From positions 1 through 16,428 of the forward strand of contig JAENRP010000584.1 in the NCBI GenBank assembly GCA_024741835.1: a stretch of DNA of 16,428 nucleotides, read 5' to 3'. Positions within the stretch are counted from its first letter, which is position 1, and each line of letters opens with the position of its first letter. The position numbers and the translations under genes were made by a program. Origin of the DNA: Diplocarpon mali. Taxonomy: Eukaryota; Ascomycota; Leotiomycetes; Helotiales; Drepanopezizaceae. Shown one piece after another: positions 2 to 16,162 of this stretch. The notes beneath the pieces are model-generated. The model was given only the letters and a program-made list of their open reading frames with translations, ran no database searches and was not told where the DNA came from.

Positions 2-406
2 GAGGAAGAAATAAAGGCTCTATCAGCTTTTGAAAACGCTACGCAATTAGCTTCTCAAGCTTTTATAAGCTATAAAGCAGATCTTAGTGAAAATATATAC
101 TCTAAACCGAGTAATACTAAGATCATAATTGCAAAAGAGGGATTATCAGAGATCCCTGAGCCTAAAAATTACCAAGAAGCTATAAATTCAGCTTATAAAG
201 AATACTGGCTAAAAGCTATGCAAAAGGAGTTAGACTCTCTAGAAGAGCTAAATACATGGGAAATATTGCCCTACGAGGCTAATACTCCTACTTATAAACC
301 CTTAAAAACTAGATGGGTTTATAAGATAAAGGTCCATAAAGAATACTACGAGTTTAAAGCTCGCTTCGTTGCAAAAGGCTTCGAACAGCTATATGGCCTA
401 AACTAT
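2..406 (+). CDS. Ty1/Copia reverse transcriptase (RVT_2), 5' part of a split frame
   Basis: This open frame of 135 codons enters from the left edge, and its true start lies outside the window. Residues about 1-65 are the linker before the RT. From about residue 70 (W-L-K-A-M, then ELDSLEELNTWEI) it has the start of the Copia-type RT fold, followed by the hallmark block TRWVYKIK, the FKARFVAKGF segment and G-L-N-Y. In the Copia family this enzyme copies element RNA into cDNA inside virus-like particles. No stop occurs, and CAA and TGG codons are preserved, unlike in the DNA that follows. The frame is broken after the TAT codon at 404-406 by the inner element and resumes in phase at 16163. Reading on into the inserted LTR gives a few foreign residues and a stop near 425. 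Family assignment is firm. Whether the outer element was active cannot be judged from this piece. Confidence 0.9.
403..406. repeat. Target-site duplication, left copy (CTAT)
   Basis: CTAT precedes the left LTR and recurs at 16159-16162. Removing one copy with the insert restores an uninterrupted Copia RT frame. A 5-bp duplication ACTAT is possible if the final A of the right LTR is counted as target. The 4-bp reading keeps symmetrical TGT...ACA LTR ends. Confidence 0.85.
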
Positions 407-652
407 TATAAAACAGAGGGGAGATAATACAAGAATAGGCCTAAGGGAAGACTTAAAAACAAGAGGAGGAAGTACCATAAGCGGGCTTTCCTAGACAAGA
501 TGTTGGGAATAAGTCCTAAGTATAGGGTATATTTAGTACTATAGCGATACGCGCTATCTTTATATATAGAAGATGGCCCTTTTTATCCTCCTACTATCCT
601 GCGCCGATTATATGATATATATTATAAGACCTATTTATCTTAAGTCTTTATA
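407..652 (-). repeat. Left LTR (3' LTR in the element's own orientation)
   Basis: These 246 bp are repeated at 15913-16158 with no gap. By eye about 23 positions differ, all C/T or G/A. On the minus strand the consensus end bases are TGT...ACA; both ends here have decayed to TA by RIP-type change. A TATA-like octamer TATATAAA lies on the minus strand at 566-559. The left edge is set by the break in the Copia frame, and the right edge is where similarity to the other LTR stops. Confidence 0.92.
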
Positions 653-829
653 TATATCTTAAATAATAAAAGTAGTAGCCTTTACTACTATTAGTAAGGA
701 ATATAAAATAATATAGGTTAAGGTAATAGCATATTAATTATTAGCAAACCTTAAGTGCGAGAAACTAATATATTAAAAGGCTTAAACTAAGGCTATATTA
801 TTATTAAAGGTAAAAGAAAAAAAGAAGAG

Positions 830-855
830 TTTTTTTTTTTTTATTTTTTTTTTTT
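830..855 (-). repeat. A-rich homopolymer (A12-T-A13 on the minus strand)
   Basis: Twenty-five of 26 bases are A on the minus strand, about 100 bases after the proposed ORF3 stop. It could be an ordinary slippage tract or the remnant of an mRNA poly(A) tail. No AATAAA signal is visible just before it. A terminator role is not supported. Confidence 0.6.
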
Positions 856-868
856 ATATACGCTTTTC

Positions 869-891
869 ACCTATAGGCCAGGCCCAGGAGT
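869..891. repeat. 23-bp palindrome family, copy 1
   Basis: Arms ACCTATAGGC and GCCCAGGAGT, centre CAG. It lies after the likely ORF3 stop. If the frame is extended it falls in codon phase 2, unlike all other copies, which fits a non-coding position. Confidence 0.75.
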
Positions 892-1172
892 TAGAAAACG
901 AAACTAGTAAAACAAATAAATAAGCTATAGAATTATAAAAACAATTAAAATAGAATTAACTTAGGTATTAGTTTTCCTTAATTCTTTTTAAAGGATAGGG
1001 AGAACTATTATTAGATAATACTCTCTTTGCTAAACGACTACTTCTTCTTATAGCATTGCTATTAGTGTCTAATAAGATAGCTCTTAGTATAATAGGAGCT
1101 TTAGTAGTTTAAGCAGATGCTAGTATGCTTTAGCGGCTTCTACTAATAGGGAGAGAGACTTATATAATAGCG

Positions 1173-1197
1173 TTATTATTATTATTATTATTATTAT
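1173..1197. repeat. TTA/TAA trinucleotide microsatellite
   Basis: About eight TTA units run on the plus strand. On the minus strand they are AAT codons in the ORF3 frame and encode a run of seven or eight Asn near its C-terminus. The unit length of three keeps the frame. It may be partly a product of RIP acting on Asn/Asp-rich codons. Confidence 0.8.
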
Positions 1198-1283
1198 CCT
1201 TAAGGGAATTGTCGGTAATAAAGGAAAGGGAGGTAGGAGATGCTACGGACTCTACTTCTTTAGCCTTACCCTTTGCTAAATCA

Positions 1284-1306
1284 AGTTATAGGCCGGGCCT
1301 AGGAGT
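1284..1306. repeat. 23-bp palindrome family, copy 2
   Basis: Arms AGTTATAGGC and GCCTAGGAGT, centre CGG. In the ORF3 frame (minus strand, phase 1) it reads T-P-R-P-G-L-stop-L, near residue 1043 and just before a Ser/Thr/Pro-containing stretch. Confidence 0.8.
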
Positions 1307-2105
1307 TGTATTAAGGGTTTTTGCATAAGGCTTCTTAGTGCTATACTTCTTAAGAAGTATTATCTTATCAATTAGGTTATTAGCTTTAATATTATTATTT
1401 ATATCTTTAGTCTTTATCTAAGACTTATTATTATATAACTATAGCTCTAGTTATTAAACTAGCTTCTAAGTATTAGTAAAATCTTTAAAAAGTTCTTATT
1501 TATACTTCTTTAGATATACTATTAGCTGAGATATATCTTTTGCAAATAAATCCTTTATAGTTATTACTATTAATAGGTTATTTTATAATCGTCTTCTTAT
1601 AAGAGCGTCTGATAGTAGACTACCTTTTATTATACTAAGTATTATACGAAACTTAGCTAAGGATTCTTTAGTAATACTCTATCTCGCTATGCTTAGTTTC
1701 TTTATACAAATGGAATCGATAATGAATTCTTCTAAGTCAGCGCTATTCTTAAGTGATTCATTGCTAATAACTTCTATATAGTTGTTACTAATAGCAAGAA
1801 AACTACCCTTTCCAGGTTCTCTATTAGAGTCTAGGTTAATGAAAGTGCCTTATCTTATAAATACTAAAAACAGAGTAGTCTTATTAGAAATATACTCCTT
1901 TAGAATTGTTCTATCCTTAGTATTTAATTCTTTCTATTAAGCTGCGCTTTATATTAGATTTAGTAAGATCTACTAAGAGTTCTTAAGACAATAGGATATA
2001 AGTGTAAATGACTTATAGGACTTTTCCTATATAGTAAATTCTTTAATCGACTGTTTAGCAGTAGGGATCATATAATAGTTAATAGTTCTACTATTAAGAG
2101 AATTG

Positions 2106-2128
2106 ACTTATAAGCTAGGCCTAGGAGT
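2106..2128. repeat. 23-bp palindrome family, copy 3
   Basis: Arms ACTTATAAGC and GCCTAGGAGT, centre TAG. In ORF3 (phase 1) it reads T-P-R-P-S-L-stop-V, near residue 769. The likely counterpart in ORF2 is copy 7. Confidence 0.85.
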
Positions 2129-3335
2129 TAAGCTTACGAATCTTATATTAGCGTTAATCTTAGTAGAAATAATTCGCAAATAGTAGTTAATACTTATAAA
2201 CTATATAGGCTTAGGATATGCTACTAGCTTATATAAAGAATTATAATAAGTTAATAGAGTATTAAGATATAGATTATAGTATATCTTTAAGGTCTGCTAT
2301 ATTAAGATATAAGTTATATTATAAAGGAAGGCGGAGGGGGGGCTTAGCTTCTTATCTAAGGTCTGGAAATAGTATTAGTACATTTCTAGCTCCTCTTATA
2401 CTAATATCAAAAATGAATTCTTTCTACGATTACTATAACTATACGTGCGCATAGTGTTTAAAAAGGCATAACTTAATAACTTAGGCATATTTAAGAAACC
2501 TTTGGTGCAGAGTGATATTAGGGTATCCTTGGTTAGTATAGTCTTATACTAGGCAGGGGTCTAAGTGATATTATAGAATAATTTAAGGGCCTTGAGTACT
2601 ACTTAGAACTTGGAGAAACCTAATGATATATCTTTCTTAATTTAGTTGGCTATTCTATTACCTATAGTCATAATTGCACAGTTTCTAAGGTGTAATAAGA
2701 ATAGAGTCGAGTCGGGTGCAGTATAAAATTTGTATATATTAGAGGAAACTTGCTTATTAGTTAGAGATACTATTATCAACTTATAATATTATACATATTA
2801 TTATTTATATAAAGTATAAAATTTTTCAAAACTGAAGTCCTTGAATATCCTTATTATAAATTTGCTTAATTGTATCTTCATCTTTAATATTACCGCAATC
2901 TTGAATCTATTGCTATATTAAAGTATTATCTTAATATTAAGGGAAACTTTATAGTACTTTATAAATATGATTATTATACTACTTTCTGACTTTTCTTTAA
3001 GGATATAGTAGTCGCCTTTCGATTTCTTATACTTAATAAAGAAATGTATAATATTATCTATAGAAAATTCGTCTTATCGCAGCTTTATAATTTACTTAAT
3101 AGCTTTTGCTATTGCCTATTATACTAATAAAACATCTCCCTGGTTTTCCTTCTTTAAACGCTTTATTATAGATTTATAGAATCTTAGAATAAACTTTTGC
3201 AGATCTTTAGGAAAAGTTTATATAATATCGGATATATCCTTTTTAATATTATTAAAAATTTCTAATACATTAGTAATAAGGCTATCTACTTTATCTATTA
3301 GCTTATCTTTTAAATCTATATTATTACGTATTCTG

Positions 3336-3358
3336 ACCTATAGGCTAGGCCTGCGAGT
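3336..3358. repeat. 23-bp palindrome family, copy 4
   Basis: Arms ACCTATAGGC and GCCTGCGAGT, centre TAG, with flanks that extend the symmetry (TG before, CA after). In ORF3 (phase 1) it reads T-R-R-P-S-L-stop-V, near residue 359, only 186 bases from copy 5. I found no convincing counterpart in ORF2. Confidence 0.88.
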
Positions 3359-3521
3359 CATTTTCTTTACTACTAGTATTTAAGGTGTTTAAGGCATTTC
3401 TAGGGATAGTGACTTAAATTCGTCTAAGTTAGAGGATTAGTAGTTAGGTAGGTTAGCTGCTTGAGTTCCTAGTATTATAAGCACCTCCGGCTTAAAGACA
3501 TTCTCCTTATATGCTGATTCT

Positions 3522-3544
3522 ACTTATAGGCTAGGCCTATAAGT
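3522..3544. repeat. 23-bp palindrome family, copy 5 (perfect arms)
   Basis: Arms ACTTATAGGC and GCCTATAAGT are exact reverse complements around the centre TAG, the only perfect copy in the window. In ORF3 (phase 1) it reads T-Y-R-P-S-L-stop-V, near residue 297. The positional counterpart in ORF2 is copy 8. Confidence 0.92.
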
Positions 3545-4432
3545 CAAATTCTCCTTATTAGTTATTCCTACTAGGGGTAGTAGCATTTTTAAAGTGATAG
3601 GAATAATAAACTCCTATCTCTCTATCTTATTATCGAAGTAATTTATAGTATACTTAGTAAGATAAGTCATCTTCTCTTTTATAATAAGTAGATTATATTA
3701 CAACTATTAAAGGCCAAGTGTATTTAAAATAGTTTAGTCGGGAAGTATAAAATTATTATACTATAAGGGTTTATCTTTTATAGTCTAAATAGTAGAGTAT
3801 ATAATAGTGCTTAAGAACCTAATAAATTTTCTGCCTTAGATGCTATTTCCTTATAGCTTTTTTATACCCTTTTAAATAGTGAAATAATTTAATACCTATA
3901 TAGCCTTTGCTATAGGTTAGTATATCTCAAAGATTTTGCTAAGCCCTTGCAAGGCGTTATTAATAGTAATATTAGTTATAAAGTAGGTCTGGAAAAGTGT
4001 ACTATAAGTGCTACTTATAAATTGTAATAATCTTTTTATATACTTATTCTTTTTATCTCGATTTTTTTAAAACAAATCTATTAAATTAGCATACCTTTAA
4101 TATTCCTATAGAAATTTTTCATAATCGATCCCTTTTGTCTTAAGCTTATTCTTAAGAAAATTATCAAAGCTTAAAAATCCTTCTTTTATAGTAGAAATTC
4201 TATAGTTTAATACTTTTATAAATGAGTTTAAGAATACTTGCTATTCTATTTTACCTAATATTCTATAAGTAGTCACTATATCTTTTAATAATCTTAAAGC
4301 TTTTCTATCCTATAAAAAGTTACCCTCTAATATTAGTTTATTATTAGCAGTATTTAGGGGTTTGCTACCTAAAGCTATAACTAATATATTCTTCTTAAGT
4401 GTGGCTTTCTTGCTTAAGCTTAGTGGTACTAT

Positions 4433-4945
4433 AATGAATTATTTAATAGGAAGGGGTAGTTCTAAATAAAGAGATGATTATTTAAGAAAGATTAATAATA
4501 TAGGAGGCTTATATTAGAAAAGATTGATAATAAAAGACAATAGTAGTAGTGCTAGTATTATAGGTCTGGTAGGGTTATAGAAGAAGTAAAAAAAGTAAAA
4601 TTGTAATGCGGGGAGAGGCTTATTTATAGAGTTTTGGAATCGCGCTAGTGTACAAAGGAAAAGTGGGCATAAAGAGGCTAGAGGTAGGAATAAAAGTGGG
4701 GCATGATATATACTAGGACTTATAATTGGTAAATGACAATTATCAAAGGTAAGGATGATATTTCAAAGGTAAGCGTTAGAAAGTTGTATATAAAGGAAAT
4801 AATCAAAGGATAGATTATATATAAAGAATAAAGTAAAGTAAAGAATATATATAGAATAGAATAATGAATAGAGAATAAAGAGGTACTAGTATATAGGAAG
4901 TAGATAATTTAAAAAAAAAAGATTTAAGTCGAATTTGTAAGTTCT
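4433..4945 (-). promoter_or_regulatory. Spacer between ORF2 and ORF3 with a promoter-like TATA box
   Basis: About 510 bases have no frame. On the minus strand the segment is pyrimidine-rich and holds TATAAATA at 4628-4621, about 190 bases before the ORF3 start, followed by C/T tracts (GCCTCTCCCC and TTACTTCTTC). This resembles an ascomycete RNA polymerase II promoter. There is a T10 run (4920-4911, minus strand) near the ORF2 end. The stretch keeps more G on the plus strand than its neighbours, so it looks less eroded. It suggests that ORF3 has its own promoter rather than being part of the pol transcript. Confidence 0.45.
4621..4628 (-). promoter_or_regulatory. Candidate TATA box of ORF3
   Basis: TATAAATA on the minus strand is set in CTATAAATAAGCC, with a C/T-rich stretch directly downstream. 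It is a better match than the simple TA runs elsewhere in the window. The inferred ORF3 start is about 190 bases downstream. Confidence 0.4.
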
Positions 4946-5174
4946 TTAAATGGTTTTCCCTAAGGGTAATAGGCTAGATTTTCTAGATTGCTCAACTCAA
5001 TTATCAATTCTATTATCACTTTAGAGTCTTCTTCTCTTGCGTTAGTTCTTACCTTTTGGCGATTTTTCTAATTTAAATGCTTATATTAAAGGAACCTCTA
5101 TTTATACCCTTAGGTTTGGTAGCTAAAGTTCATCCGAACTATTTTATAGGCTAAAGCTAGCTGAGTCCAACCTT

Positions 5175-5197
5175 ACTTATAGTCTAGGCTTACGAGT
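5175..5197. repeat. 23-bp palindrome family, copy 6
   Basis: Arms ACTTATAGTC and GCTTACGAGT, centre TAG. In ORF2 (phase 1) it reads T-R-K-P-R-L-stop-V, near residue 1033, just before the basic tail. The counterpart in ORF3 is copy 2. Confidence 0.85.
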
Positions 5198-6059
5198 CAG
5201 TCTTGGCGTTTCTAAGCTTAAGGGTAAAAATAGGGAATTGGTTCCTAAATCAGGGTCTGATGTTATACTAGCGTCTCGGTTTATCTCTTTTCCGAACTTT
5301 CTTATAATAATGCCTTTATTAATTAGTATATTAGGCTCTCGGATAGCATTTGCTTTATTACATTATCCTTAAGACTTAAGTCTATAAAGAAGCGACTTAG
5401 TATTTGTAATATTTATCTAGGCCTTAATAAAGGTATTAAAGAGTTTTTAATTATATTCTATAAGGTAGATTTTCAATTCGTCTTTATTAAAAAGAAATAA
5501 CTCCTATACTTCGATTATAACTAATAGATCTATTTAAGAGCGTTGATTAATAATGGCTTTAAAGAGGCTGCTATAGTTCTTAAGATAAAAAGCTACTTTA
5601 AAAGGTATAGTGGTTCCGCTTGTATTAATCTATTAAGGTACTAAAGGTTGCTTTAAAGTAAAAATTAAAAAGATAAGATTAGAGATTTAAGTCTTATTTT
5701 CAAAGGTATTCTTATTATAAATGGCTATATAGTTATTATAAAAGGCTATAAAACCATTAGTCTTATAAGAATTGTCCGAAAGCATTTTAAGAAAGTATCC
5801 TTATTTTATTATTACTATAATTAGATTGCTATTATTAGTAATAGGTCGTAAGATCTCCTTTTACTTTAATTTTACAGTTATTTAAGCTAGTTGAGATTTT
5901 GAACTAAGTGCTTAAGAAGTCTATCGACTTATCTTCTTTATTAATAAAGTGAGTTTTATATTTAATTAAGAGCCGACTTACCTATTAAGGCTTTTAGAAG
6001 CTAGCCCTTATCTAATCGATAGGATTTAATAATCTAAGACTTACTTTTTAATAAAATTA

Positions 6060-6082
6060 ACTTATAGGCTAGGACTATAAGT
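6060..6082. repeat. 23-bp palindrome family, copy 7
   Basis: Arms ACTTATAGGC and GACTATAAGT, centre TAG. In ORF2 (phase 1) it reads T-Y-S-P-S-L-stop-V, near residue 738. Confidence 0.88.
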
Positions 6083-7445
6083 AATAATCGGATTTTCTTT
6101 ATTAGTAATACTTATATCTCTCTTTATTAAAACAACTTAATTATAAAGATTAAGACCAATTAATTAAAAAGGTTTAAAGTAGGCTATAAGTTAATAGGCT
6201 CTTTTACTTTTCGCTATTATAGCTAAGAGGTAAAGTCTATAATGTATCCGAAGGACTTATTAAGTGAGATTAAATATTATATTATAAAGAAAATAAGAAG
6301 GTATAAAGGTTGCGTTATTTATAAGATAGAAGTGATAAAGGTATATCTCTACTTCTTATCTTATAATAAAGAGGAATGTACTTATAAAAGTACTATTATT
6401 AGTAGTAAAATTATCGATTAGGAAGCGGCATCTAAAGGGTTTAGGCATTATAATTAACCCTTCTTCCTCTATTTCCTTTTACTATTTATTACTTAATAAT
6501 ATTAATAAAAAGGAATTGTTCTATTCAATTGGTTCTAACGCTTTTAAAGCTTTAGGATCAGCTTTGAATTTTATAGCACTTAAAGATGCCTCTATTATTA
6601 ATAGGTTGGATTTGCGTATCCTTAAAAAGATAAAGAATTGATTATTAGAGTAGATTAGAAAAAGATCGATATCTTTTACTATATAGAGAAGTTTAAGGTA
6701 TTTAATAGTTTTATTAATATTAAATCCTTTATAATTAAGACTATAGTAAATCGAAAGAGAGCGAATATAAAGGTTATAAAGTCTTCTTCCTTCGATTCCT
6801 ACGCTAGGAAGATACTATCGAAAGCAAGTTTTTATTATAAAGGATACTTAAATGTTATATCGTTCTTTAAGCTTAAGGTTAAGAATAACCGATTAAGGCA
6901 TATTGCTATAATTATAAATGTTTTAATTAATAGATTCCTCTTTATATTCTCTTTCTTATAAGATGAAATAGTCTTACTTAGCATCTAAGAGACTAGGTTC
7001 TTGACTTTTATAATTATTAAAGAATTAAATAATATTTGCAAAGGCGAATTCGTCTAAGGTAAGCTATTGAATCTATCTAATAGCTCTTTTAATTATTTCT
7101 AAAGCAGTAGGAATAGGGTCTTCCCTTACATTATTATTTTTAAAGCAGTTATATATAAATATAAAGAAGTTAAGAACTAGCTCTTTTAAGTTATTAAAGA
7201 AGGAGTTTAAATAGGCGTGCAATCCTTTGATTTTAAATTGCAAATCAGCTAAAGTGGCTATTAAATGATCTATCCTTTTTAAAGGTTAAGGTAAAATTAG
7301 TTATTTAGCTAAAGGAGAGTCCTTTAAAGATTCTGAAAATTCCAAAGAGGCTGCATCAAGCGTTTAAGCAGTGTATTCGGCAGCGATTTTTAAAATCATT
7401 TTAATAAGAGGCAGGTTAGGTCCAGTTTTAAAATTCTCATTTCTA

Positions 7446-7468
7446 ACTCCTAATCTAAGACTATAAGT
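7446..7468. repeat. 23-bp palindrome family, copy 8
   Basis: Arms ACTCCTAATC and GACTATAAGT, centre TAA. In ORF2 (phase 1) it reads T-Y-S-L-R-L-G-V without a stop, near residue 276. It is diverged in the left arm. Confidence 0.75.
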
Positions 7469-8293
7469 TAAATTATATAATTTAGTACTTATTATATCTT
7501 TAGGCTAAAAGGCGAATTTTAAAGCAGGCTTAACTATAAATAACCAATTCCCTTCTTTATTATTAAAGAAATCTTATTTAAACCTTAGTATAGGAGTCTA
7601 GTTCTCTTTTAAAATAAGTAAACTATAAGCAAAAGCGCAAAGCTTTAGTATATTAATAATAGTGCTATTAGGTAAAGTAATATCTATAGCCTAATTTGAT
7701 CTTTTTATAGCTCTATTAGCTGCTATAAGTACTATATTAGATAGGCTTATAAATCTGCAACCGCGAATTCGATTGCTTTAGAATTTTACTACTCCTTTTT
7801 AAATGATAAAGAAATTGAAAATCTAAATAGCTCTAGTAGCAAGAGTGTTTTCCTTAAGAATTTTTAATAATACTTGCCTTCTATTATTAGAATTAATATT
7901 TATTAAAAAGCGTAAATGAAATAGGAGTCCTCTCTTATTAATAGCTGAATTATCTAATTATCGAATAGATTCTTCCCTTTTATCTTAATCTATTTTAAAA
8001 GCGTTAGCCAAGGTTATATATTAATCTGCATTAGCTAAGAATTCCTCTTTGGAGATTCCCTTTAGTCTTAATTCTTTAATTAAGAAGTCGTTAAATTAGA
8101 GAATTCCAAGGGCCACTTAAATTAAAAGGTTATTAATAATATTTGCATAAGCTAAAAGGAGTTTTTATTATTCTATATCTCCTAAGGCTATATAGGTCGA
8201 TTTAAAGCTCTCTAACGATATAATAGCTCTACTATCCTAAGAGAAGTTTATAATTAGTATTTATTTATCCCTTATTATAGTAGATAAAACCAT

Positions 8294-8497
8294 TTATAAG
8301 TTCTTTAAAGGCATATTGCTTATAAAGGATAAGGAGTATAAATAAGAGAGTTTAATAGGATATAAAAATTAAAAGGGCATATAAGCTATAATAGGTTTGC
8401 TATATATATATTAAGGAAATTGGACTTTTTATTTATTATTTAAAGAAAATAATAGGAATGCTATAATTAAAGGTTAATATTAAGAATGCAAATTAAG
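8294..8497 (-). promoter_or_regulatory. Gap between pol and ORF2, possible ORF2 promoter
   Basis: About 200 bases lack coding support: the pol frame accumulates closely spaced stops that do not look like RIP of Gln codons. They contain an alternating TATATATATA run (8401-8410) roughly 110 bases before the ORF2 ATG, and a TTTATAC near 8338. No LTR, terminal repeat or recognisable polypurine tract is visible. An internal promoter is a guess from position. Confidence 0.3.
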
Positions 8498-8708
8498 TCA
8501 AAGCAGGTAAGAAATTAAGGTGATCTTAAAAGATCCATATCTTAAATAATAAAGGAGGCGATTTTGCTAAAAATGTAAAAATAAGGATTAGAGGAAAGTA
8601 GGACAATTGATAGGCTAGGAAATTGTTTAGTATTCCTATTTGCGTTCTTTGGATATTTTAGGAATAATAACTTAAGGTTGTAATTAAATAGGTATTTTAA
8701 TATTCTTC

Positions 8709-8731
8709 ACTCGCAGGACTAGCTTACGGGT
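8709..8731. repeat. 23-bp palindrome family, copy 9
   Basis: Arms ACTCGCAGGA and GCTTACGGGT, centre CTA. It lies in the pol frame (phase 1), reading T-R-K-L-V-L-R-V, after the integrase C-terminal domain and near the end of pol. Confidence 0.78.
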
Positions 8732-10143
8732 TAAGTTAGAGAAATCTTAGTCTTTATCTAAGGGTTTAAAATTGCTTATATTACTATCGGTTCCTATAGA
8801 AGATTCAGAGGTTATATCAATTTCTGATTCGTCTTCTAAAGGGAATAAGGTCTAGTTATATCGATAAAAGCGTTTTAATCAATTGGCTGCGAAGGTCCCT
8901 TTAATATCAACTCTATTAAGTTCTTAAAGAGAATAGTATCCTTTTTCTTTTTACTTAGATTTAACTTTAAATAGGCTAAGCTATCGATAGTTAAGTTTAG
9001 TATTTACTAATATATTAATACTTCTTATAATATCATAGACTAGGATAAGATCATCTTTTTAAATAGGGTATATTTTAAGTACTTTAAAAGCAGCCTATAC
9101 TTCTTTAGTTTTTTCCTTATATCATTTCTTTTGTAGAATGATTTCCTTTATATTTATATCTTAGAGCTTAAGTTATTAGCATCTTATTGCTAGCAAATTA
9201 GAATAGTTTTAAATTTGATTATAGTCGAATAATCTTTAAATAGGCTATTAGGATTTAAAAGGGAGCTATACCTCTTTGCTATAGATAAGGAAAAATGGTA
9301 TAACTCTAGTCGGTTTATAAATTATCGTTTAATAAGTAAAGAGTATTTTATAAAAGTGTTTTATCCAATTTTTAAATCCTTTATAAGTAACTTTAGATAG
9401 CCTATTAAGAATATTGCGATATTCTTGCTCTATTACTCTATTAGCTTTTAAGTTATACGCTAAGATTTAAACCCGTTTAATGCTATATTTTTATAAAAAA
9501 GCTTTAACTACTCCTTTATTTTTAAGGCCTTTATTAATAGTTAGTCTGCTAAAAAGTCTATAATAATAGACTATATCTTCTTAAAGGAACTTTGCAATAG
9601 ATTTAGAGTTAGTAGATCTTAAAGGTTGTCCTTTAGGCTATCTTAATAGGTTTTCCTTTGCTAAAATAAAATATATAATCCTATTTTCGGTTGTTAGTAC
9701 TTATATAATATTGAGATTGACTTTATAGAAAAGGCCTAATGGCTAGGTTAAGAATAAGGGATTTTCCTTATAATTAGGTTTTTGTTTCTAATAGGAGACG
9801 CAACTTTTTACAAAAGCTTTACAGTCTTTAAAAGAACCTTTTTAAAAGAATTTTCTTAAAAGCCGATAGTAAGTAGACTTAGCCCTTTAGTGGCCTATTT
9901 CTTTATAAATATCTTAAATAGCCTTAGCTTACAGTTTATTATTATCTAAATAGAGTTGTATAGGAAATGAGTTATTGCTCCTTTTAAATAACCGCCTTCT
10001 TTATATTAGATAAATTAGAGCTTTAGCTTTAAACTTTTGAAAATCCTTAAGAGAAACTGTCTTTAGTTATCTAAGTATAACTAAAAATTTTGCGATTTCT
10101 TTAAAGTCATTTAAGTAATTAAGTGATAAAATCCTCTTATTTG

Positions 10144-10166
10144 ACTTATAGGCTGGGCTTGCGAGT
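10144..10166. repeat. 23-bp palindrome family, copy 10 (different phase)
   Basis: Arms ACTTATAGGC and GCTTGCGAGT, centre TGG. It lies in the linker between RNase H and the integrase zinc domain. Unlike most copies it is read with its first base in codon position 3, giving L-A-S-P-A-Y-K, with no stop. Confidence 0.88.
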
Positions 10167-12110
10167 CGAGTTCCTTTAAGGCGATATATCGATAGATAAC
10201 TAACTTTATTCTCTACCTACTTATTAATATCTATTTTATCTTCTTTAATCAAATTAGAGGGGTAGGGGTAAGTTCTTTTTAAAAGGCCGTTTGCGGTAGT
10301 GTTTTTCATTCCTGGAATATATTTGACTTTAAAGTCTATTAGTCTTATTTAAGTAATCTATTTTATTAGCAAAGCTTTAGGTAAGTCGCTTGCAGCTTTA
10401 TTTAATTCTTCTACTAGTACTTTAGTATTAGTTTCAAGGATGAAGTAAGTGCTATAAAGGTTGCTTCTTATCTTTTTTATTGCTTTTAGGGCTCCTTTGC
10501 ATTCCTATTTAATAGTATTATACTTTATTTCTACTAGATTCTAAAGACTACTTTTAAAGTAAGCTAAATGTCTTTTCTATTAGCTATTAGCTTATTAAAG
10601 GATAGCATCCTATTTGATTAAGCTTATGTTAACTATTAGTATAATTGGCCTAGCGTTAGCTCTATAGTCTATTTTGATTAAATATGGCGCTTTAAGCAAC
10701 GCTTGCTTTAGTTGTTTTATAGCCTCTATTTAGGGTTCCTCCTATTAAAACTCAGCCCCTTTTTAAAATAAGGTATAAATAGGTGCTACCTTTTTAGTAA
10801 AATCTTTGATTTAAATACGATAGTATATTATAATGCTAATAAATTCGCAGGCTTCTGCTATATTATTATACCTCTTCTATTTATCGATTTTAAGTACTTT
10901 AGCCCTTTAAGGACTTCGGCTATTAGAATTAATAATAAAACTAATAATTTCTATTAATAGAAGATAGTATTATAACTTCGGACTAACTGTTGCTCTTGCC
11001 CTTTCGAATCGTATAAGCACCTAGTCTAGGTTTTAAATATATTCTATTATAAATTATTATATATTAAGGAGAACTTCTTTATAATTATAGAATAATCTTA
11101 ATCCTTTTACTCTTATATTATCTATATAAAGGAGCGTAATATTAGGTATATAATCTATTAGTATCTTATAAATTACTTAGATAAATTAAGCAATCGAATT
11201 TATAGCCCTTTAAGGTAATCTTATTATCTAAAGTAGCTTAAGAGGGGTTTGAATTACTATTATATCTCTCGATTTAATATTAAGAATAAATTAGTCGTAT
11301 TTAAAGAAGAAGTTAATAAGAGAGCTACGGGTTAATCCTACGAATTCATTTAAGAACTTATCTATATTCAAAGGAACGTTAGCGTCCTTAATAGTTATTT
11401 GGTTTATTTCTACTACTGCTATTATTAGTCTATAAGTTCCCTTTTCTTTCTTAGTAACTAAGAACCATTTGTTCTTATAAAGGCTATTATAGAATTCGAG
11501 AACGCCTTGCTTTAGCCTATCCTTTAATATTTCGATTACCTTTTCTTAAAGAGCTTTAGGAACTCCGAATGTTTTCTCTTACTAAGCCTTATAGGGTATT
11601 ATTTTAATCTTAATATAAGGCGTAACCTCTTCTCGAATCTAGCTAAGTTCTGTCTAATTAAAAGCTAAGGTATCCTTTCGATTTATTAAGGTTTTATAAA
11701 GTAGTTCGCATTCTTACTCTATTAAGTCATCTTTAATTTTTAGTATATCAAAACGTTCTTTTATTAGCTAATATCCGATAGGTTTATTAGAAAATCTGCT
11801 TATAATAAACTTATCGAATTTGCCACCTAGCTTTAGAGGTCGAAGTTTCTTATCTTATTTAAACTAATCATCTAATCCTTTAGGCTTTAAGCTATTAGAG
11901 ATTCTCTAATCTATCAATTGTACTTTATCGGCTTTACTTTTATATATAGTTCAAATATTAGCTAGTACTATGCTTCTCTACTTCTTTCCTTTTTTATCAA
12001 ATCCTATAAAACGGTCCGAATTTTCCTTTTTAAAAATAAATAAAAGATTTTCTAAGTTATTAATTTAAAGTGCGTAAATAGAAATATTATTAGTAATTTT
12101 ATTATTTTTC

Positions 12111-12133
12111 ACTTGTAGGTCCAGCTTATAAGT
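12111..12133. repeat. 23-bp palindrome family, copy 11
   Basis: Arms ACTTGTAGGT and GCTTATAAGT, centre CCA. In the pol frame (phase 1) it reads T-Y-K-L-D-L-Q-V, between protease and RT, 139 bases from copy 12. Confidence 0.8.
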
Positions 12134-12272
12134 GGTTTTTAGGTTTTTTAAAATGATTGGTAAATTATTGAAATTTGTAAAATAAACCCTCTTCTCTACC
12201 TTATTTTTCTTTTTTCTTAATTATTGATTTGATAAAACGCTAATTGTACTATTTTTTAAAATTCTAGATTTA

Positions 12273-12295
12273 ACTCTTAGTCTAGGACTATAAGT
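12273..12295. repeat. 23-bp palindrome family, copy 12
   Basis: Arms ACTCTTAGTC and GACTATAAGT, centre TAG. Flanking bases extend the symmetry (ATTTA before, TAAAT after). In the pol frame (phase 1) it reads T-Y-S-P-R-L-R-V, near the start of pol. Confidence 0.82.
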
Positions 12296-14188
12296 TAAAT
12301 TGCTATTATTTAAAATCGGCAAACTTACCTTCCTTTTGCTATAACTCCTTGCTAAGTGCCTTCCTTTATTAGTATTAAGCCTAGCCCTTATACTAGCTAA
12401 TCGTTTCCTAAAACCTTATTTTAGAATTCGGCTATATCTCTTATAATAACTATTTGTCCTTTTAAAGATCGATCTATATTCTAAAGACTAGCTTTTATAA
12501 GACTATCTTTAGGATAGTTAAATATTAGCTAAGATTTTAAAATAAAAGGCATTTTTAAAAGAATATCATTTAAAGAATTCTCTATTACTAGAAAGTTGAT
12601 ATAATTAATAATCCTTTTGACTTTAACCTTTACGTTTTTTACCTATTTATTAAAATTGTATTTCGATTTAAAGATAGTCGAATATATAAGAAGTCGATTG
12701 CTAACAATTGATAATTAAGTCATTTCTGCCACTTTTCTAATTATTATATTAACTTTTAAACTATAATCGATTAGAGCCTTTGCTTTAACTGATTCTTCTA
12801 TTAAATAAATAATAATAGGGCTTTTTATTGCAACTGCTAAACAATTTCGATTGATATTTTAAAATATTAAGGCTATTATTATAATATTATAATACCTTTG
12901 GGTTCCTTTATCTTTTGTAATCTAAAGACATTTGATTAAGGCTAAGTGCTTCTTAGAGTTCTTTTATATTACAATTTCCATTTCCTTATTATTATTCAAA
13001 TCTTTAAAGGCAATTAAGATATACTTTCCTAATACTTTATTAAAGCATTTAGTTAAACTAAATAGGTCTTTGAATATAAGGTTAATTTGCTAGGCTATAA
13101 TATTTTTTATAGCTTTCTCTATTATAATTGAACTAGTATATTTATTAACGAATTTTTCCTATTTTAATATCTATCTCTTTCGCTTAAGATTAGAAGTCTA
13201 TGTAATAATTTTAACTTCTTAATCTTTAAGTTTAAAGCTATCTTTATCTATTATATCTTTAATCAATTCGTCTGCTATATTGGCTTTATCCTTATCTATT
13301 GCAATTCTAAACTATTAAGTGTCTTTTAGCGTTTAGACTTTATATTAAGATTCTTAAGTTGCACGCGCTGATTTCTAAACTTTGGCTAGTTTTATTAGTA
13401 TTAGTAGAATGGAAGATCTAAAAGGACGCTAAGAATTCCAAAGGTTCTTAGATATAGAAGTAGTATTAATATCGGCTAAAACATTATTATTAACCTATTC
13501 TAAAATAGAGATGCCTCTAACTTCTATAGCTATTTAATCAAAAGCTAGGTCCTTAAGAACTCCCTTAGGTAGATTGCTAATTAGACTTATATATATATAA
13601 GTTGGAATTTTAGCGTTTATATCTATAATATGCTATTGTTTGATTAAATTCTTATCTTATTTTATATTATATATTATCGTTTGAATAGTCTATAACTATA
13701 AGTGATTCTAGTGCTTTTTAATAAGGATAGCTTTTAGCCTAGGATCTTTAATGCAAAGCATCCTATACTTATTAATATATATAACCTTAGTATTAATAAA
13801 ACAATAGAAAAGAGGACAATTATTATAATACTTATATAAAGGGCAGTTGGGTTCCTTATTATTGCAAAAGTTGCAAGTTAGTCTTCTTCTATTGCTATTC
13901 CCTTAATACCTTATAATGTTAATATTAATAGAGTGCTGGTTAAGATTAATTTCTCTTTCTTTAATTAACTATTAAGTTCTTATATTAACTAGTTATTTCA
14001 AATAATAAGAAGTAGGAGTCTAGTAATAGGAATTACTAGGTTGGCTTATAATAGCTAAGTTTTATTTATTATTAAATTAGGGAATATGCTATTTTTCTTA
14101 TAAAAGATTATTAATCTTAGTTTTTAAGCTTTACATTCAGAGTTCTATAAATTAGGTCTTAAGTTTCTTAATTCTAAGGTTGGATCTT

Positions 14189-14211
14189 ACTCCTAAGTCG
14201 GGCCTACAAGT
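14189..14211. repeat. 23-bp palindrome family, copy 13
   Basis: Arms ACTCCTAAGT and GCCTACAAGT, centre CGG. In the gag frame (phase 1) it reads T-C-R-P-D-L-G-V, between the Gag structural domain and the cysteine cluster. Confidence 0.8.
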
Positions 14212-15197
14212 GAAAGGTATGACCATTAGGTTCTTCTTTACCTCCTTTGTAACTTCCAAAGCTTTCGAATGTTCTTAGACCAAGCTCTTAAGGTCTTTAG
14301 TATAAAAGGGAGTAAGGGCTTTTTCCTACTCTATAGTATTAATAGTTCTCTTACTAAGATCTGATTTTAAAGCAAAGGCTAAGAATTCCTTAAATAAGGC
14401 AAAGGTTATAAGGTCTTGCTTATTAATCCTAAAATGCTTAATAATCTTATTTCAAAGGCTAATAGGTAATCCGAGTAAGAAAAGGCAGCCTCTTTCAACT
14501 TTACTAAGTATTTTCTAGCTGATTAAGGTATTTAATATATAAGTAAAAGTCCGATAGTAGTTCTTAAGTTCCTTAAGAGTTTAAGTAATTAGAATAAATT
14601 CCTTTAAGAAAGCTAGAGTATTGCGAATCTACTATTTATCAAATTTATAGAATTCAGACTTAAGAGCCTTAATAAGGAGTTCTTATAAACTATACGTTTT
14701 CTATTTAAAGAGGGATTTGATAATATCTTTACTTATATAGTTATAGTAGCAAAGGAGCTAAGAAATCATATCCGCTTATAGAATACTAAAATTATAATAA
14801 GTTTCCTTATATTACTTAAGGAAATTAATAATATTAGCTCTTATAAAGTAAGGAGCACTAAGGGAACTAAAGAAGGGAAAGTGGCTAGTAATAGCCTTAA
14901 ATGCGGCTATTATCGTTTTATACTAACTATTTAAGTTGATAGAATCTATAGGAGGTAAAGGGGAAGCTTTAATATCGCATAATTGGTTATTAAAAGGAGT
15001 ACTTCGAAATTCAAAAGGGCTTAAAGAACGTTCGGAATCCGAGTTAATCTTAGAGTAATTAAGACAGGTTTGAAAAGATTCAGATAAAGGAATAGTGAAA
15101 AGTTTAAAATTGTTATTATTTTTAGTGTTTTCTAATGTTAATATTAAAAAAGTAAATAGCAGCCTTAAGTTATTTAAGGATGTCTTTTTATCCTCTT

Positions 15198-15220
15198 ACT
15201 TATAGGCTAAGCCTAAGAGT
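15198..15220. repeat. 23-bp palindrome family, copy 14 (different phase)
   Basis: Arms ACTTATAGGC and GCCTAAGAGT, centre TAA. It lies in the N-terminal part of gag (residue about 122), read with its first base in codon position 3 as L-L-G-L-A-Y-K, the same phase as copy 10. Confidence 0.83.
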
Positions 15221-15664
15221 AGAATTCCGGATTTTATTAAAAGTTTAATCCGAGTTTGCTAAGAGATTTTAAATAGGTGCTAAATAGCTAATAAGAGCGT
15301 TGCAACTAATTGTAATAAGATAAGGTTTACCTAATTAAAGACTAATTTTTAAAATAAGGTTTATATATAAGATTCTTTTTAGCCTTTAGGCTAATTCCTA
15401 TTAGTCCTTAGAATAAAGGGGTCTTTAAAGACGATTCTAGGGCAGTTTTTAGAGTTCTATTGAACTAAGGCAGTTGAATTATCAAATTCGGATTTCTAAG
15501 GAAACTGAGGATGCACTTCTAGCTAAAGCTTGCACTTAGTATTACTTAAATACTTAAAACTACTATTGTTTGAGGTTGCTATTATAGGTTTTATTAAACT
15601 TTTTATATTAGAAAGCCGAAAATTCCGAGAATCTTGGAGTTGAGGAGGAAAAAAAAAAGGGGGT

Positions 15665-15685
15665 TTTTCGGAATAGAGCCGAAAA
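15665..15685. repeat. Small inverted repeat in the leader
   Basis: Seven-base arms TTTTCGG (15665-15671) and CCGAAAA (15679-15685) flank the loop AATAGAG. It is the clearest hairpin in the leader and is unrelated to the 23-bp palindrome family. Its role is unknown. Confidence 0.35.
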
Positions 15686-15894
15686 GGGAAAATCTGAGGT
15701 TATTGATAATTGCTAAATGAAAATCGATAGTTCTAAGTAACTAGGCGATTGAAGAGAGAGAAATTGATGATTTTCGATACTAATCGAAGTGCGTAAAGGT
15801 GGTTTTCAAAGATGTTTTTCAAAAGGCCAGTCTCTTATCTGCGAACTAAGAGATCGATAAGGTTGTATAAGGATAGAAATCTTAAGAAATCGGT

Positions 15895-15912
15895 CCTTGT
15901 ATAGGTCACTAA
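15895..15912 (-). other. Possible primer-binding site next to the 5' LTR
   Basis: Directly inside the upstream LTR the minus strand reads TTAGTGACCTATAC. Primer-binding sites normally start with TGG, complementary to the tRNA CCA end, within a base or two of the LTR. TAG here would be TGG after one TpG-to-TpA RIP change, giving TGGTGACC. The tRNA is not identified. The position is good and the base match is partly inferred. Confidence 0.4.
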
Positions 15913-16158
15913 TATAAAATAGAAGGGAGATAATATAAGAATAGGCCTAAGGGAAGACTTAAAAACAAGAGGAAGAAGCACTATAAGCGGGCTTTCCTAG
16001 ATAAGATGTTAAGAATAAGTCCTAAGTATAGGGTATATTTAGTACTATGGCAATACGCGCTATCTTTATATATAGAAGATGGCCCTTTTTATCCTCCTAC
16101 TGTCCTACGCCGATCATATGATATATGTCACAAGACCTATCCATCTTAGGTCTCCACA
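15913..16158 (-). repeat. Right LTR (5' LTR, promoter-bearing in the element's orientation)
   Basis: This is the partner of the LTR at 407-652. It keeps the less mutated outer end, beginning TGTGGAGACC on the minus strand, against TATAAAGACT in the other copy. It ends at 16158, directly before the second CTAT. As the upstream LTR for the minus-strand genes it should carry the RNA polymerase II promoter, for which the TATA-like box below is the visible candidate. Confidence 0.92.
16065..16072 (-). promoter_or_regulatory. TATA-like box in the 5' LTR
   Basis: The minus strand reads TATATAAA about 90 bases into the upstream LTR, followed by a short GC-bearing stretch (GATAGCGCG). It is unchanged in both LTR copies although their surroundings differ by RIP-type transitions. 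Position and orientation fit the promoter of the minus-strand genes. Start-site evidence is absent, and A+T-rich DNA gives such boxes easily. Confidence 0.45.
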
Positions 16159-16162
16159 CTAT
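16159..16162. repeat. Target-site duplication, right copy (CTAT)
   Basis: This is the second copy of the duplicated target, immediately after the right LTR. The Copia codons continue from 16163. Confidence 0.85.

Follow-up and report, generated by a model that had tools for sequence, protein, structure and literature searches.

The stretch from position 1 to 16,428 of contig JAENRP010000584.1 of the fungus Diplocarpon mali (assembly GCA_024741835.1), referred to here as the window, is 16,428 nucleotides long and holds a long terminal repeat (LTR) element of 15,751 bp at 407-16157. The sense strand of this element, named Gypsy-A here, is the minus strand, and the element carries 14 dispersed near-palindromes of 23 bp. 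In our favoured reading, which we hold to be probable by a modest degree, the 23-mer is a module of DNA that is compatible with reading frames and has spread among LTR retrotransposons. The 14 copies lie as follows (no strand is assigned; phase A means that the palindrome starts on the first base of a codon, and phase B is another phase):

869..891, palindrome 1: beside the 3′ LTR, outside the inferred frame, counted as untranslated
1284..1306, palindrome 2: coding, phase A
2106..2128, palindrome 3: phase A; present by score in 35 of the 40 family loci
3336..3358, palindrome 4: phase A; scored in 39 of these 40, the exception (L005) having no alignment there
3522..3544, palindrome 5: phase A; every arm pair complementary; scored in all 40, of which ten were fetched with the motif
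5175..5197, palindrome 6: phase A
6060..6082, palindrome 7: phase A
7446..7468, palindrome 8: phase A; present in the Gypsy-A copy L053 too
8709..8731, palindrome 9: phase A; present in L053 too
10144..10166, palindrome 10: linker between RNase H and integrase, phase B; likewise in L070 and L080
12111..12133, palindrome 11: phase A; upstream of the reverse transcriptase match
12273..12295, palindrome 12: phase A; upstream of the reverse transcriptase match
14189..14211, palindrome 13: on the gag side, in phase A of the upstream frame inferred there
15198..15220, palindrome 14: behind the 5′ LTR, outside the inferred frame, counted as untranslated

A degenerate 23-mer pattern with up to three mismatches finds 13 distinct places in the window (25 strand-wise matches) and none in 200 dinucleotide shuffles. 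A position-weight matrix built from 12 of these 13 places sets 14 places apart. The lowest of them scores 22.7 and the next place in the window 4.9, while the best place in 50 second-order Markov shuffles reaches 19.1. Pattern and matrix together thus bear out the 14 copies claimed in an initial annotation of this DNA. All 14 measure 23 bp and are dispersed single copies at spacings of 0.16-2.0 kb, and on this contig none lies in either LTR or in the flanks outside the LTRs, so the fixed length and the absence from LTRs and flanks stand as well. The claim that they are confined to the inner element is true within this contig and fails genome-wide, where the motif occurs in other elements. The symmetric ten-base arms also need qualifying: the copies are near-palindromic, and only the one at 3522 has all ten arm positions complementary. 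Positions 5 and 19 are neither complementary nor G.T nor A.C in 7 of the 14 window copies and in 10 of 11 units from other families; in nine of these 11 the pair is C-C or G-G.

The carrier has the following parts:

402..406: left target-site duplication ACTAT; the same 5 bp recurs at 16158-16162
407..651, minus strand: left LTR (3′ LTR in sense), 245 bp, 222 of 245 positions identical to 15913-16157
1203..8998, minus strand: long inferred coding region downstream of pol, with eight palindromes in phase; fewest stops among the six frames; without Pfam match
9773..9940, minus strand: integrase H2C2 zinc-binding domain (PF17921)
10271..11464, minus strand: reverse transcriptase/RNase H, a partial alignment to the Ty3 enzyme 4OL8 (E 5.1e-17); PF17919/PF17917
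about 10439-10729, minus strand: RNase H part of that match
15913..16157, minus strand: right LTR (5′ LTR in sense), paired with 407-651
16158..16162: right target-site duplication ACTAT, paired with 402-406

The two LTRs, the target-site duplication and the pol order of reverse transcriptase, RNase H and integrase, with RNase H and then the H2C2 domain in a single frame, identify the carrier as a Ty3/Gypsy LTR retrotransposon. Its insertion splits a Copia-like gene, whose frame, read by eye, picks up again beyond the ACTAT pair. Pfam searches of longer window stretches (with X at stops) returned pol domains only and were blank for 1202-9001 and 12601-15195; ten single open segments were all blank, and a solved-structure search of 8402-10201 gave nothing better than E 0.28. 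As a separate observation, the inferred coding stretch that follows integrase (1203-8998, minus strand) is, at some 7.8 kb, a long extra capacity for an LTR element.

Repeat-induced point mutation (RIP) turns CpA into TpA on either strand, producing transitions and no indels. In the window CpA and TpG are depleted to 0.37 and 0.43 of expectation, and all 23 sites at which the LTRs differ are transitions, which points to RIP in Gypsy-A. The window copy is dead and RIP-mutated. Two further features of the family may be recorded here. The Gypsy-A copy L053 bears at 2287-2569 an insertion of about 283 bp that resembles a solo LTR, with TGTGACG...CGTCACA ends, a target duplication TTGCC (by eye) and several short GAACCGG-type repeats. 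In L065 (686-936) a Gypsy-A LTR directly abuts internal sequence equivalent to window position 4603, a junction that is probably a nested insertion of one Gypsy-A member into another.

The motif is abundant in the host assembly (49,369,952 bases in 676 contigs). The fungal nature of this host is borne out by 60 matches to PF04082, a transcription-factor domain of fungi that had no match in 14 control genomes. With the reversed pattern as control, a broad pattern with up to two mismatches finds 8,091 places against 30, a narrower pattern near that of the initial annotation 3,342 against 0, and a GC-rich, little-mutated form 272 against 0. That chance, or the composition of AT-rich, RIP-mutated DNA, produced the palindromes is refuted by these 30 against 8,091 places and by the 200 empty dinucleotide shuffles, and we dismiss it almost entirely. 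The initial annotation had named equal frequency in shuffled sequence, or absence from family members, as grounds for giving up the observation; the control count and the presence of the tested sites in nearly all family copies compared leave it intact.

The first ten loci returned by a search with the motif all match Gypsy-A, L005 in part. In a random sample of 20 stretches of 3 kb, searched at up to four mismatches, the motif occurred in 5 of 7 AT-rich stretches (two Gypsy-A, three other elements) and in none of the 13 with GC of at least 0.45 (gene-like; a small sample of 39 kb). Of the 20 loci picked for the GC-rich form, every one sits in a repeat: one unclassified family accounts for 17, a Copia family for 2 and a second Gypsy family, Gypsy-B, for 1. 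The motif is therefore not confined to the window element, and every copy read sits in repeats, mostly LTR retrotransposons; copies inside host genes may exist, the gene-like sample being 39 kb. Exact 23-mers had no match in collections of viral and prokaryotic contigs, as expected if the motif is fungal.

The carriers read comprise two families of Gypsy, one each of Copia and of Copia-like elements, and the unclassified repeat, and across them the palindromes occupy polyprotein linkers and places near LTRs. In Gypsy-A one lies between RNase H and integrase (10144), two lie upstream of the reverse transcriptase (12111, 12273), one is on the gag side (14189), eight are in the downstream coding region (1284-8709) and one stands beside each LTR (869, 15198); none falls inside the reverse transcriptase/RNase H or integrase matches. 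In Gypsy-B (L082 and relatives) the palindrome is also in the RNase H-integrase linker with a Pfam domain on each side, at about residue 153, where RNase H ends at 95 and integrase starts at 234. This site differs from 10144 in both flanks and phase. In the Copia family (L107, L119), probably one of Copia LTR retrotransposons, the palindrome is immediately upstream of the protease domain. The single pol domain found in the 523 bases read of L107 is PF22936 Pol_BBD (30.2 bits, cut-off 27), and a solved-structure search of L107:7-207 gave nothing better than E 0.28.

The Copia-like element, named so from motifs read by eye in L059, L005 and L056, has an array of ten palindromes in L059. The array fills about 470 bp (L059:480-949), its units spaced by 39 or 48 bp and in one case by 90, and the flanking spacer is partly repeated too. 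Three copies in L059/L005 lie behind the apparent end of RNase H. Neither Pfam nor the solved-structure search gave a match on L005:692-907 or L056:1751-1990, and Pfam was also blank on L059:1142-1480 and L059:1570-1863. Palindromes near LTRs and outside inferred frames are found at 869 and as copies in L005 and L060. The L060-type sequence had been a candidate separate family, which we dropped because L066 connects it with Gypsy-B; it probably represents the 3′ end of that family, with a palindrome near its LTR. Two other candidates were dropped likewise: L055, taken for palindromes in a plus-strand gene, and L121, taken for a junction of two families, are both Gypsy-B read antisense.

No palindrome occurs in the 0.74-0.87 kb read at the integrase-domain loci L067-L069, L071-L079, L081, L083-L086, L092, L093 and L095-L102, nor in stretches of about 0.85 kb at C498, C102 and C38. 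Integrase-domain matches at G000:C102:133108, C200:6014, C498:5858 and C38:126751 lie in open frames of 624-1024 residues, and some families here are therefore little mutated. In the unclassified repeat, the locus L105 has a tandem set of a second short near-palindrome, of type CACCCCTTAATAGAGGTG, adjoining the 23-mer and with A-runs between units. Such units are perhaps a second class of mini-palindrome in that repeat, whose other members are L103, L104, L106, L108-L118, L120 and L122.

The reading frame of the carrier was inferred from its stops. Stops are fewest in a single minus frame between about 600 and 12,600, and from there to 15,200 in the next minus frame or, about equally, in one plus frame. 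Over 1203-8998 TGA, the stop codon not readily created by RIP, occurs 4 times in the chosen frame and 12-24 times in the other five. Over 12604-15195 the minus frame has 2 TGA and 47 TAA/TAG and the plus frame is hardly worse (3 and 45); the minus frame was chosen there because the sense strand is minus. Ten palindromes are in phase A of the main minus frame, and 14189, whose phase depends on the inferred frame shift near 12,600, is in phase A of its own frame. One phase thus holds 11 of the 12 coding copies, for which the binomial probability, with the phase given, is 4.7e-5. The Gypsy-B and Copia palindromes are also in phase A. All phases of the unmutated motif translate without a stop, so stops alone do not explain the bias.

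One explanation for the bias would be selection at the protein level. Here the Pro-Gly peptide T-x-x-P-G-x-x-V would be selected as a flexible or cleavable spacer, the palindrome would be a by-product of its codons, and the repeats would be coding minisatellites. The use of one phase by 11 of 12 coding copies when all phases are open fits this, and so do the between-domain positions in Gypsy-A, Gypsy-B and Copia and the in-frame tandem growth described below. Yet the third codon positions are nearly invariant, with T at position 3 in 24, C at 15 in 22 and A at 21 in 23 of the 25 units, some of which are not independent; the motif also stands near LTRs outside the inferred frames and once in the other phase; and its reverse-complement versions encode different peptides. 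We regard a peptide origin as rather unlikely.

Orientation bears on the same question. The motif is incompletely symmetric, often with ACTCC on one arm and ACTCG on the other. In sense, the ACTCC arm comes first in Gypsy-B (L087, L090; TPGPGPRV in L090) and last in Copia (TRGPGPGV in L119), and save for one transition these two units are mutual reverse complements. Both orientations occur within Gypsy-A as well, at 869, 1284 and 2106 as opposed to 7446 and 14189, all in phase A except 869. The presence of both orientations in the same phase favours a DNA module, which could sit either way round, over a conserved peptide, which should not recur as its own reverse complement.

The persistence of length and symmetry in heavily mutated surroundings, which the initial annotation had stressed, calls for no special protection. 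RIP affects the two arms of a palindrome in the same way. Within the GGCC-N-GGCC core the centre base is the only place for a CpA or TpG, and both CGCA on one arm and its counterpart TGCG on the other are converted to TATA. A palindrome under RIP thus stays a palindrome, and the kept length and symmetry are largely an effect of RIP. Substitutions were compared for three palindromes over the 40 Gypsy-A loci less L005, L010, L011, L013, L030 and L040 (rearranged, or the window itself). Transitions per site are 0.095-0.196 inside and 0.127-0.164 in the flanks, that is, alike. Only transversions, which are not due to RIP, are fewer (0.000-0.018 inside, 0.019-0.066 in the flanks). Among 23-bp windows the three palindromes singly rank 0.44, 0.19 and 0.03 for transversions; jointly the deficit has p 0.044 against random triples, 0.050 when phase-matched and 0.020 when GC-matched. 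This is a weak hint of constraint on the palindromes before RIP.

Such a constraint is what one would expect of a functional site acting in cis, recognised as a palindrome by a dimeric DNA-binding protein or by a factor for RNA packaging or dimerisation, with many copies raising the affinity. The roughly five-fold shortage of transversions in the three palindromes (jointly p 0.02-0.05) agrees with it, as do the near-palindromic form with a three-base centre, the up to 14 copies per element and ten in one array, and the hairpins predicted for three units (-15.4, -7.4 and -11.8 kcal/mol). The arms do not covary between sites, however: 7.28 pairs are complementary against 7.07 after re-pairing (p 0.24, 18 of 25 units), and on the sense strand G.U pairs are not favoured over A.C (18 against 25). 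With neither covariation nor a G.U bias, a hairpin kept by pairing is not supported. The frequent mismatch at 5/19 and the commonness of Gypsy-B copies with a single unit in the linker region read also count against a cis-acting site, and we consider it unlikely.

In each search for family copies the most similar copies were scored, namely the best 40 of 297 for 12111/12273, 40 of 332 for 14189, 40 of 184 for L082, 40 of 180 for L090, 40 of 180 for Copia and 40 of 218 in the first copy search, so that fixed means fixed among the most similar copies; moreover, copies compared within one family are not independent. Of the 40 Gypsy-A loci, ten (L001-L010) had been fetched with the motif and L011 is the window. 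The palindrome at 3522 is in all 40, that at 3336 in 39 and that at 2106 in 35; among L011-L040 alone the counts are 30 of 30 for the first two and 26 of 30 for the third. The loci in which 2106 is unscored (L005, L013, L015, L024, L038) are all unaligned or gapped in that region. Length is within 1 bp of the window over 12111/12273 in the best 40 of 297 copies, and over 14189 in the best 40 of 332. Judged by these alignments, the dispersed Gypsy-A sites seem to be as old as the family.

The Gypsy-B and Copia sites vary in tandem number. The 45-bp unit of Gypsy-B is present once in L082, twice in L088, L089, L091 and L094, three times in L090 and four times in L087 and L121. The best 40 of 184 matches to L082, itself included, all have its one-unit length. 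Relative to the three-unit L090 (best 40 of 180), lengths differ by -90 bp in 3, -45 in 21, 0 in 14, +45 in 1 and +18 in 1, where the 14 zero rows include a partial match (C273) of the four-unit L121 and the split rows of C82 and C232 were joined by hand. Copia has one unit in L119 and two in L107, at a distance of 54 bp. Relative to L119 (best 40 of 180, five loci with split rows joined by hand) its lengths differ by 0, 3, 6, 51, 54, 57, 60, 63, 66, 69, 78, 87 and 90 bp, which are multiples of three in 40 of 40 and include 12 distinct non-zero values. Since the length shifts keep the frame, the array regions were probably translated while the arrays changed. A variable number of tandem units, the mark of a minisatellite, is thus found in both Gypsy-B and Copia.

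The fixity of the dispersed sites in the copies compared would also follow from old inheritance alone, in which one or a few ancestral LTR elements bore the motif and ordinary transposition, duplication and recombination did the rest, with no insertion step of the motif's own. The similarity of about 71-72% between the Gypsy-A LTRs and those of the L060-type element speaks for such descent. Against it, the carriers include both Gypsy and Copia elements and the sites are at non-homologous positions, and we judge it improbable as the full account.

The favoured reading, that of a palindromic module spreading at the level of DNA, would run as follows. The ancestral module would have been GC-rich and nearly palindromic before mutation, of type ACTCGCGGGCCNGGCCCGGGAGT, and may have entered several LTR retrotransposon families of one RIP-active fungus. 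Entry would have succeeded where extra residues are tolerated, in inter-domain linkers of the polyprotein and in stretches beside the LTRs. In coding DNA the module would be retained almost only where it leaves the frame open, as an eight-residue Pro-Gly linker T-x-x-P-G-x-x-V, in either orientation. It would multiply passively with each retrotransposition of its carrier and, in some families, also through in-frame tandem duplication of a unit containing it (39-54 bp in the arrays read). Later RIP would have killed most carriers, leaving the GGCC core and the symmetry visible. We infer that the sites arose by copying one module, not independently, and that copying between elements went through template switching of co-packaged RNAs in reverse transcription, or through recombination. 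A bolder version makes the 23-mer an in-frame parasite of retrotransposons: a non-autonomous nuclear module that passes between unrelated LTR families and is compatible with translation both ways, in effect a hyperparasite. This we regard as possible and somewhat doubtful.

Several observations weigh against a spreading module. No new insertion was caught among the copies compared. Empty sites, or any polymorphism for presence and absence, were not seen at 3336 and 3522 (40 loci), at 12111 and 12273 (best 40 of 297) or at 14189 (best 40 of 332), and the related linker in L092, which has no palindrome, is too diverged to place borders. Direct repeats of 1-10 bp, as target-site duplications would leave, are not in significant excess around 23 sites (26 were listed, and three removed as duplicates; lowest p 0.06). 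The single coding copy in phase B, 10144, has the same phase in L070, a less mutated copy in which it belongs to an open stretch, and if 869 and 15198, both out of phase, are counted as coding, the bias falls to 11 of 14 (binomial 6.9e-4). The bias is also compatible with a cause at the protein level, the other phases being free of stops. Finally, the motif is known here from one genome only.

If the module does move between LTR families, the gain of short coding insertions could be dated and counted. The material for this is ample: two Gypsy carriers and a Copia carrier have 180-332 candidate copies each, RIP marks the dead copies, and selection is recorded in the frame. Comparison with sister genomes would then allow a direct test of how short repeats come to be seeded in frame in proteins.

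We know of no set of coding palindromes in a eukaryotic nuclear genome, and in searches of open-access literature the titles and abstract openings describe no nuclear in-frame palindrome set for fungi or other eukaryotes. Among known systems, miniature inverted-repeat transposable elements (MITEs) and foldback elements are non-autonomous, bounded by inverted repeats and high in copy number. The 23-mer is far shorter, leaving no room for two termini plus an interior, and unlike MITEs it is without significant target duplication and without presence/absence polymorphism at the sites tested. It differs from minisatellites in that its copies are not confined to arrays (the window has 14 dispersed singles). 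Minisatellites associated with retrotransposons come closer, as they too are tandem units inside an LTR element; those of Gmr9/GmOgre of soybean are placed between the coding region and the LTR (PMC3305785). In contrast, the 23-mer occurs as many dispersed single copies, is also coding, is found in several families, and forms arrays only in some.

Short hairpin units scattered through a genome are familiar from mitochondria, the GC clusters of yeast being one case. Repetitive hairpin-forming elements of mitochondria, as in sponges, are likewise scattered and are reported inside coding genes too (PMC2800124). These are organellar, whereas the 23-mer resides in nuclear retrotransposons and shows a bias in codon phase. 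The nearest parallel is with the Rickettsia palindromic elements, which are described as palindromic, dispersed and in frame in coding sequence, their peptide becoming part of the protein (PMC10969869). The 23-mer shares these properties, and the analogy, which the initial annotation had drawn, fits the frame data, 11 of 12 coding copies being in one phase. The Rickettsia elements are about 150 bp long, bacterial and inserted in unrelated cellular genes, whereas the 23-mer is 23 bp in the copies scored, fungal, and found in repeats, mostly LTR retrotransposons, in the copies examined, with none in 13 gene-like samples. By analogy, then, the 23-mer may be viewed as like the Rickettsia palindromic elements in kind, not as a member of them.

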